A stretch of DNA of 64,000 nucleotides from Actinomycetota bacterium (GTDB lineage Bacteria; Actinomycetota; Geothermincolia; Geothermincolales; RBG-13-55-18). Each line of letters opens with the position of its first letter. Position 1 is the stretch's first letter. A program made the position numbers and the translations under genes. Under the pieces are notes generated by a model that was not told the DNA's origin, ran no database searches, and saw only the letters and a list, made by a program, of their open reading frames with translations. The DNA lies in the NCBI GenBank assembly GCA_014360655.1, contig JACIXC010000007.1, positions 1-64,000 on the forward strand, given 5' to 3'. Of the stretch, positions 54,165 through 56,599 are shown piece after piece.

Positions 54165-55466
54165 TCAGCGGGCGAGGTTCATGCCGGAGAGGGCGAAGTC
54201 CCCCAGCAGGGAGGCGCGGGTGACCGCCCCCTCTCCGTAACGGTCGCGGATGGCGTCCAGGGCGGCGGTGAGCCTCTCCTCCCTGCCGTCCATGATATCC
54301 CATATGGTCACCTGCCTGCCTTCCTCCCGCCGGCGCAACTGCGAGACGGAGACCCCCACCGTGGTCACCGGCTCCGTCCACAGGCCGCAGGAGGCCTCCC
54401 GCCGCAGCAGGTCGCGCGCCGCCTCGTAGACCGGCGACGGGAGGTCGGTGTACCCGGGCAGGGTGCGGGCGCGGGCGTATCCCAGGGCGTAGCCGACGCG
54501 CAGGCGCAGGCTCACCGTCCTTCCCAGGTAGCCCTCCCGGCGCATGCGGCGGGTGACGGCGTCGCACAGCCCCAGCAGGGTGTTCTCCAGGTACTCCAGG
54601 TCGCGGGTGCCGCCGCGCAGGGAAAGGCTGTGGCCGAAGGATCTCATCTCCTCGCCCTCGCCCCCGCGCATCACCGGCCCGGAGTCCCGGCCGTGGGCCG
54701 CCTCCCACAGCAGGCTCCCCACCACCCCGAACTTCCACTGCAGCACCTCCCGCGGCGCGCGCGCCAGGTCCCCGACGGTCTCTATGCCCATGGCCCGGAG
54801 GTGGCGGCGCATGCGCGCGCCCACCCCCACCAGCCTGTCCACGGGGAGGGGGGCGAGTATGTCCGGGAGCTGTTCCGGGAGGACCAGGGTCAGCCCGTCC
54901 GGCTTCCGGAACTCGGAGGCCATCTTGGCCACCAGCTTGTTGGGGCCGATGCCCACGGAGGCGGTGAGGCCCAGCTCACGCCGTATCTCCTCCTTCAGCC
55001 TCCCGCCCACCCGCAGGGCCTCCTCCCAGCGCCTCCCCCCCGGAGGGTACCGGCGCAGCAGGGGCGTGAGGTCCACGAAGAGCTCGTCTATGGAAAAAAC
55101 TTCCACACGATGGGAGAGCCGTTCGCAGATGCGCCGCAGGCGCCGGGCGTTGTCCAGGTACTTGGGGATGTCGGCATGGACGAAAAAGGCGTGCGGACAG
55201 CGGTTGCGCGCCTCCCACACCGACATGCCCGCCTTTATCCCCCAGCGGCGGGCCTCGTAGGAGGCGGTGGCCACCACCCCGTGGGAGCAGAAATCGCTGG
55301 AGGTGTGGCAGACCACCAGGGGGCGGCCGCGGTAAAGGGGCGCGTCCCTCTGCTCCACGGAGGCGAAATAGGCGTCCATGTCCAGGTGGAGGACGCAGCG
55401 CCCCTCCCCTTCCCTCCGCCCCCGGTCGGCCGCCCGCAGCAGGCCGCGCGTGACGTACTGCGTCAT
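54165..55466 (-). CDS. dinB: Y-family DNA polymerase (DinB, Pol IV)
   Basis: A 433-residue translesion polymerase. Catalytic acids: Asp29 and Asp31 in LHLDMDAYFASVEQ, and Asp127-Glu128 in VFSIDELFVDL. The steric-gate Phe/Tyr is in DAYFAS. Further Y-family signs are YEARRWGIKAGMSVWEA and TASVGIGPNKLVAKMAS, an HhH thumb (DRLVGVGARMRRHLRAMGIETVGDL), and the little-finger domain. No clear beta-clamp motif stands at the very end (FALSGMNLAR). It starts 24 bases after the DUF6504-like gene and is probably co-transcribed from the lexA promoter or its own. Some actinobacteria have ImuB there; here the catalytic residues are all present. Confidence 0.94.
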   Translation of the reverse strand: MTQYVTRGLLRAADRGRREGEGRCVLHLDMDAYFASVEQRDAPLYRGRPLVVCHTSSDFCSHGVVATASYEARRWGIKAGMSVWEARNRCPHAFFVHADIPKYLDNARRLRRICERLSHRVEVFSIDELFVDLTPLLRRYPPGGRRWEEALRVGGRLKEEIRRELGLTASVGIGPNKLVAKMASEFRKPDGLTLVLPEQLPDILAPLPVDRLVGVGARMRRHLRAMGIETVGDLARAPREVLQWKFGVVGSLLWEAAHGRDSGPVMRGGEGEEMRSFGHSLSLRGGTRDLEYLENTLLGLCDAVTRRMRREGYLGRTVSLRLRVGYALGYARARTLPGYTDLPSPVYEAARDLLRREASCGLWTEPVTTVGVSVSQLRRREEGRQVTIWDIMDGREERLTAALDAIRDRYGEGAVTRASLLGDFALSGMNLAR

Positions 55467-55490: not shown

Positions 55491-55742
55491 CTATCCCTCG
55501 CTGTGCACCCGCACCAGGCTCCACCTCATGCCGTCGGTGGAGAAGCGGAGCTCGTAGACCTCCGGGGTGTCGCTCATCACCGAGTAGTGGAGCTCGAGGT
55601 AGCGCCCCTTCATGTCGCGGTAACTCCCCAGCACCCTGCGGACGCGGTACTGGCGGCCGCGCCACAGGAAGGCGGTGGGCCGCAGCTTCCCGCCGCGGAA
55701 GACCGCCGACACGTCCACCGGTTCCTCTACCAGGGTGACCAT
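55491..55742 (-). CDS. DUF6504-like protein
   Basis: An 83-residue protein. The ATG at 55742 has AAGGAG at five bases; ATGs further upstream give a longer, less likely N-terminus. It has a small beta-barrel pattern: EEPVDVSAVFRGGKLRPTAFLWRGRQYRVRRVLGSYRD..., then YLELHYSVMSDTPEVYELRFST, WSLVRVHSEG. This pattern is found in actinobacteria as DUF6504, often next to error-prone polymerase genes. The family name is from memory of that pattern. It precedes dinB by 24 bases. Confidence 0.75.
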   Translation of the reverse strand: MVTLVEEPVDVSAVFRGGKLRPTAFLWRGRQYRVRRVLGSYRDMKGRYLELHYSVMSDTPEVYELRFSTDGMRWSLVRVHSEG

Positions 55743-55933: not shown

Positions 55934-56539
55934 TCATACCCTCTCCCGCAGCAGCGACACCACCTTTCCCGCCACCCTCACCTCCGCCTCCCCCTTCCTC
56001 ACCCGCAACGGGGCGTAGCGGGGATTGGAGGGATGCAGCTCCACCGTCTCCCCCCGGCGGCGCAACCGTTTCACGGTGGCTTCCCCGTCCACCAGCGCCA
56101 CCACTATCTCCCCCTCCGCGACGTCAGCGCCGGGATCCACCACCACCAGGTCGCCGTCGCAGATCCCGTCGCCGGCCATGCTGTCTCCCTTCACCCGCAG
56201 GAGGAACCTGCCCTTCCCTCCCCAGCGCGCGGGGACCGGCAGCCACTCCTCCACCTCCTCGGAGGCATAGCGCAACGGTCCCGCCGGGACCTCGCCCACC
56301 AGGGGCAGGTAGGCCACGCCTCCCCGCAGCGTGTCCCGCACCTGGATGGCGCGCGCGCCGGGGGCGCGGGAGATGCATCCCTTCCTCTCCAGTGCCTCCA
56401 GGTGCCGGAGGGCCCCCCGCGTGGAGGAAAGGCCGAGGGCCTCGCAAAGCTCGCGCACGCTGGGCGGGTATCCCCTCCTCTCCAGCGTTTCCAGGACGAA
56501 TTCCAGCGCCTCCTCCTGGCGGGGCGTGAGTTCCTCCAT
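55934..56539 (-). CDS. lexA: LexA repressor
   Basis: A 201-residue SOS repressor. The ATG at 56539 follows GGGAGG and GGAGG. N-terminal winged helix: LTPRQEEALEFVLETLERRGYPPSVRELCEALGLSS. The autocleavage site is Ala86-Gly87 in GEVPAGP. The catalytic pair is Ser120 (VKGDSM) and Lys157 (ATVKR). On DNA damage, RecA filaments stimulate self-cleavage and the SOS genes are released. The promoter carries two perfect palindromes in and over the -10/-35 region, so it should repress itself. The following genes on this strand include a translesion polymerase. Confidence 0.96.
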   Translation of the reverse strand: MEELTPRQEEALEFVLETLERRGYPPSVRELCEALGLSSTRGALRHLEALERKGCISRAPGARAIQVRDTLRGGVAYLPLVGEVPAGPLRYASEEVEEWLPVPARWGGKGRFLLRVKGDSMAGDGICDGDLVVVDPGADVAEGEIVVALVDGEATVKRLRRRGETVELHPSNPRYAPLRVRKGEAEVRVAGKVVSLLRERV

Positions 56540-56560: not shown

Positions 56561-56589
56561 ATTATAGTAAACATCTGTTTAATAGTAAA
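56561..56589 (-). promoter_or_regulatory. lexA promoter
   Basis: On the minus strand: -35 TTTACT (56584-56589), a 17-base spacer, -10 TATAAT (56561-56566). It lies 22 bases before the lexA ATG. Confidence 0.8.
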
Positions 56590-56599
56590 CACCTGTTTA
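56568..56599. promoter_or_regulatory. Tandem LexA operators (two perfect palindromes)
   Basis: TAAACA-TC-TGTTTA at 56568-56581 and TAAACA-CC-TGTTTA at 56586-56599, centre-to-centre 18 bases. Both are perfect 6-2-6 inverted repeats. The first is exactly inside the -35/-10 spacer, the second overlaps the -35 box. They differ from the usual CGAAC-N4-GTTCG of many Gram-positives and so may be the LexA site of this lineage. Confidence 0.85.

Follow-up and report, generated by a model that had tools for sequence, protein, structure and literature searches.

As read from the sequences of its members, an uncultured, largely hot-spring order of Actinomycetota (Candidatus Solincola/Geothermincola) has a real variant of the Gram-positive LexA box, TAAAC-N4-GTTTA, which runs through the whole order and is placed at the lexA promoter in autoregulatory geometry. 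These palindromes are very probably LexA operators of a lineage-specific form, through which the repressor would silence its own gene in an SOS response consisting of a single operon. The element was followed from one window, a term used here for the whole 64,000-nucleotide stretch of DNA that was analyzed. The genome to which it belongs (2.97 Mb in 35 contigs) was placed in the Candidatus Solincola group via named relatives, the best of which shares 92% LexA identity. The relevant features of the window are as follows.

54165..55466, minus strand: dinB (PF00817/PF11799)
55491..55742, minus strand: DUF6504 gene, likely start MVTLVEEP, with the ORF open up to 55904 (PF20114, 3e-08)
55934..56539, minus strand: lexA, 201 aa (TIGR00498, PF01726, PF00717)
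56561..56566, minus strand: -10 hexamer TATAAT, promoter match; TATAAT in 14 of 14 family promoters
56568..56581: predicted proximal operator, TAAACAGATGTTTA in the lexA direction, within the -35/-10 spacer; exact, 0–1 mismatch in 16 of 16 relatives
56584..56589, minus strand: -35 hexamer TTTACT, promoter pattern match
56586..56599: predicted distal operator TAAAC-N4-GTTTA, TAAACAGGTGTTTA in the lexA direction, overlapping the -35; exact, perfect in 14 of 14 two-site relatives

Both palindromes (TAAACATCTGTTTA, 56568-56581; TAAACACCTGTTTA, 56586-56599) are exact, and their starts lie 18 bp apart, just as a first-pass annotation of this DNA had described them at a gene that is a genuine lexA. 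TTTACT-N17-TATAAT is the only sigma70-type promoter match on the minus strand between 56400 and 56800 (0.1 in shuffled sequences). The distal palindrome shares 4 bp with the -35 hexamer TTTACT, in agreement with the overlap first noted. The proximal palindrome falls within the 17-bp spacer and covers 14 of its 17 bases, so the original wording "exactly fills" was slightly generous. Promoter elements are AT-rich, and the palindromes might be ascribed to this richness or simply to chance. With up to two mismatches allowed, however, these are the only two matches in the window, where 0.09 would be expected, and two were found in none of 100 shuffles. The probability of a chance origin is practically nil, since conservation of the promoter in register, over three families, already refutes it.

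This conservation was assessed in 16 lexA genes, all that were found in the order, comprising 14 two-site promoters of one family and those of two basal genera. All 16 promoters align gap-free from the distal site to the -10. The distal TAAAC-N4-GTTTAC is invariant in the 14 two-site promoters, the proximal site has no more than one mismatch in any of the 16, and upstream of the distal site the family promoters consist of sequence without conservation. The motif originally proposed, TAAACA-N2-TGTTTA, holds for its outer TAAAC and GTTTA, which are constrained, but not for its inner A..T pair, which is free to vary among relatives; the constrained element is therefore TAAAC-N4-GTTTA(C). In many relatives the box extends outward to GTA; several family members, and the window at both of its sites, lack the G at the outer end of the left arm.

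The two basal genera (Candidatus Geothermincola, L031, and L032) possess a single site, which lies behind TTGACA within the 17-bp spacer. This arrangement suggests that the distal site may have arisen over the -35 within the family, where the distal operator appears to be built over an ancestral TTGACA box. The same two genera bear on which palindrome is the operator. In many of the promoters a 6+6 palindrome, TGTTTA-N4-TAAACA, stands between the two sites and might be taken as the functional unit; yet it is absent from both basal genera, which have one TAAAC-N4-GTTTA, and it is broken in several family members whose distal site stays perfect. The single spacer site thus fixes the register, and the central palindrome, an extremely improbable operator, was ruled out.

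The protein encoded behind this promoter has the hallmarks of LexA. It scores 195 bits against TIGR00498 (cut-off 111), with 80.6 bits for the PF01726 wHTH domain and 110.3 bits for the PF00717 S24 peptidase. The cleavage site A86-G87 and the Ser/Lys dyad S120 and K157 are kept, equivalent to Ala84-Gly85, Ser119, and Lys156 of E. coli LexA (PMC3091678), and the cleavage and catalytic residues are invariant in 12 LexA proteins of the order.

The Gram-positive LexA box, also known as the Cheo or SOS box, is CGAAC-N4-GTTCG (PMC3091678), and that of Streptomyces is tCGAAC-N4-GNNCGa (PMC9380542). The order's sites share with the Gram-positive box the N4 spacing, the AAC-N4-GTT core, an inverted repeat of 14–16 bp, and the position over the promoter. 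They differ in having an outer TA (GTA) for CG (tCG), a change fixed order-wide: all 14 distal sites read TA...TA where the Gram-positive box has CG...CG. The half-site (G)TAAAC would then be the Gram-positive (t)CGAAC with its outer bases changed. The first-pass annotation went too far in calling the sequence unlike the common Gram-positive SOS box, because AAC-N4-GTT is kept and only the outer CG is swapped for TA; its suggestion of a lineage-specific LexA site is supported. The core change from GAAC to AAAC is not unique to the order, as lexA promoters of Lachnospiraceae carry CAAAC-N4-GTTTG. The two boxes have the AAAC-N4-GTTT core in common, but the outer base in Lachnospiraceae is C rather than T, and the helix there, KSTSSVFSHL, is that of the Gram-positive clade. 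In most of the Lachnospiraceae loci (L168-L184), the box is situated ~35 bp 5′ of lexA. No earlier report of the order's box, or of LexA in Solincola/Geothermincolia, was found in the open literature that was searched.

E. coli LexA contacts DNA through helix residues 39, 41, 42, 44, and 45 (PMC3091678). In the LexA of the window, the recognition helix is S39-T-R-G-A-L-R-H-L47, and the order as a whole has S39-T-R41-G42-A-(L/Q/M)44-R45-H, whereas L033, a LexA from the phylum that is canonical for the Gram-positive type, reads S-T-S-T-V-H-S-H. Residues 41, 42, 44, and 45 differ from Gram-positive LexA, and all of these except 44 are invariant in the order, so that the difference in the recognition helix anticipated from the promoter is present as STRG..RHL. 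In a tree of 98 rows, the order's LexA proteins form one clade (100/98), located outside the clade of other Actinomycetota and Bacillota LexA (24 rows, 100/98); the resolution of this tree does not extend to the deeper branches. As part of the overall explanation favored here, the variant half-site would, in all likelihood, be read by the STRG..RHL helix peculiar to this clade.

AT-rich palindromes also serve other repressors, such as those of the ArsR type, and a different regulator might bind the two sites and control lexA. Against this, the element recurs at lexA only, throughout the order, and matches the known LexA box in its N4 spacing and AAC-N4-GTT core. Furthermore, other LexA clades with related helices carry related GTnnnC-N4-GnnnAC elements in the same place. 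Binding by such a regulator is, accordingly, highly improbable, and LexA is retained as the predicted ligand. The arrangement would be one of self-repression, as first proposed, with an operator geometry that is conserved at the lexA promoter across the order. Tandem LexA operators for negative autoregulation are likewise found at the lexA promoter of E. coli (PMC9210283), but there the box is CTGT-N8-ACAG and LexA controls ~40 genes, versus one visible operon here.

That the visible regulon is so small follows from searches for the element elsewhere. TAAAC-N4-GTTTA occurs three times exactly in the window's genome: twice at lexA and once at C1:208973, a match that was rejected as a promoter site since it falls within a DNA-methylase ORF. 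Exact matches across the order's 18 genomes number 32, with 24 at lexA; none of the remaining 8, inspected singly, recurs at a gene, and their number is at chance level (11 for a reversed-pattern control). When one mismatch is allowed, the window's own genome yields 15 matches versus 10 for the reversed control, none of them 5′ of an identified repair gene except for one NUDIX gene, which was dismissed as a target because its site is not conserved in relatives. Sites C1:204619, C11:50604, and C8:38261 were also rejected, being coding, at a 3′ end, or without a recurrent gene. A looser motif set gave 45 matches, i.e., below the 66 of its control. At uvrA of the same genome there is no site, the best match having three mismatches, and the recA promoters of the order that were examined (L016, L080-L091) have no LexA-type palindrome or operator; instead, they share TTGTCA-N17-TATAAT. 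The tightly conserved core of these recA promoters consists of TTGTCA, a C-rich spacer, and GAAATATAAT. A separate pair of AT-rich palindromes, TAAACCCAGGTTAA and TAAACAATAATTTA, lies 16 bp apart at G000:C3:17906-17935 (L070, L012), 5′ of a gene for an ArsR-like repressor, and is probably that repressor's own operator.

Repair genes, recA and uvrA among them, had been expected to carry the motif too, with its absence there named as grounds for refutation. It was found before no other repair gene; the LexA site is not thereby refuted, given that no part of any lexA promoter in the order is better conserved than this element. What the absence does argue against is a wide regulon built on TAAAC-N4-GTTTA. 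LexA could conceivably bind here and also run a wider SOS regulon via degenerate boxes, with only the autoregulatory sites being near-perfect. Weaker boxes might escape a strict pattern, several LexA targets of Streptomyces venezuelae have imperfect boxes (PMC9380542), and a few one-mismatch sites do lie near genes in the window's genome. Yet the one-mismatch count is close to its control and the looser count below it, the order's conserved recA promoter is without such an element, and neither uvrA nor the NUDIX gene offers a sound candidate, which leaves the wider regulon unlikely.

Since lexA alone carries the element, it defines an SOS regulon of essentially one operon. The gene order lexA-DUF6504-dinB is kept in the contigs of 13 of 13 named relatives, and the window's genome yielded no Y-family DNA polymerase gene other than dinB, which is located two genes 3′ of lexA. 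Downstream of lexA, no promoter or terminator match was seen as far as the end of dinB. The gap of ~190 bp between lexA and DUF6504 (using the likely start of the latter) leaves the co-transcription of the three genes presumptive. The DUF6504 protein, which in the order is always encoded between lexA and dinB (13/13), is a candidate accessory of the polymerase.

Under the preferred explanation, LexA would bind as one dimer per site, in the -35/-10 spacer at the proximal site and over the -35 at the distal one, and the two together would block RNA polymerase from the lexA promoter. Upon DNA damage, RecA on single-stranded DNA would provoke self-cleavage of LexA at A86-G87 by S120 and K157, the promoter would open, and lexA, DUF6504, and dinB would be expressed. 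LexA may thus control only itself and the error-prone polymerase encoded just behind it. Minimal SOS-like circuits of repressor and polymerase are known from HdiR of Lactococcus and UmuDAb of Acinetobacter (PMC8565304); there, as in the proposed circuit, a repressor that cleaves itself governs nothing beyond its own gene and that of a translesion polymerase. They differ in that a true LexA would act here, with recA outside the visible regulon. Since the prediction of a wide regulon failed, the circuit is more unusual than first proposed.

A different element was noticed at lexA in two sister families of the same class (f4 and f5; L038-L045, L185-L194). There, each of 10 genomes out of 10 has TTTTCGGTTTTTGTTCGG exactly once and without mismatch; wherever lexA was located, the sequence stands behind TTGATT in the promoter of that gene. 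The sequence is a direct repeat, TTTC-N7-GTTC, with an 11-bp period. In the lexA promoters of these families, TTGATTTTCGGTTTTTGTTCGG is conserved. Their LexA proteins belong to another lineage, with the helix SSVATVAEHL, and their repeat is close to the alphaproteobacterial LexA box GTTC-N7-GTTC (PMC8565304), even though the lineage is actinobacterial.

A further pattern concerns helix residue 45. Among the fetched loci, boxes start with GT and end with AC in the six LexA clades that combine Arg45 with a clear promoter palindrome, whereas about five clades with Ser, Ala, or Gly at this position have no GT..AC (Fisher p ~0.002, for a grouping made after seeing the data and clades that are not fully independent). 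For these reasons, the relation between residue 45 and the outer bases is a lead and not a result. Arg, and often Lys, at residue 45 accompanies GTAAAC, GTATTC, GTGAAC, GTATAC, GTTACT, and GTTGAC boxes (L017-L046, L117-L184). A class-wide reading is possible, if tentative and rather less than probable: the LexA regulon would have shrunk to lexA's own promoter, with recA outside, in two unrelated LexA lineages, one using (G)TAAAC-N4-GTTTA(C) in the window's order and the other the Alphaproteobacteria-like TTTC-N7-GTTC of 11-bp period in the sister families, and residue 45 (Arg/Lys) would set the outer GT..AC.

LexA is a standard case of a repressor whose DNA word has changed in evolution. The promoter series from this order displays a variant LexA word together with its matching helix. 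If the regulon is truly one operon, the order would possess a natural minimal SOS circuit made up of a repressor and one translesion polymerase, and the relation between residue 45 and the outer bases of the box would be directly testable.
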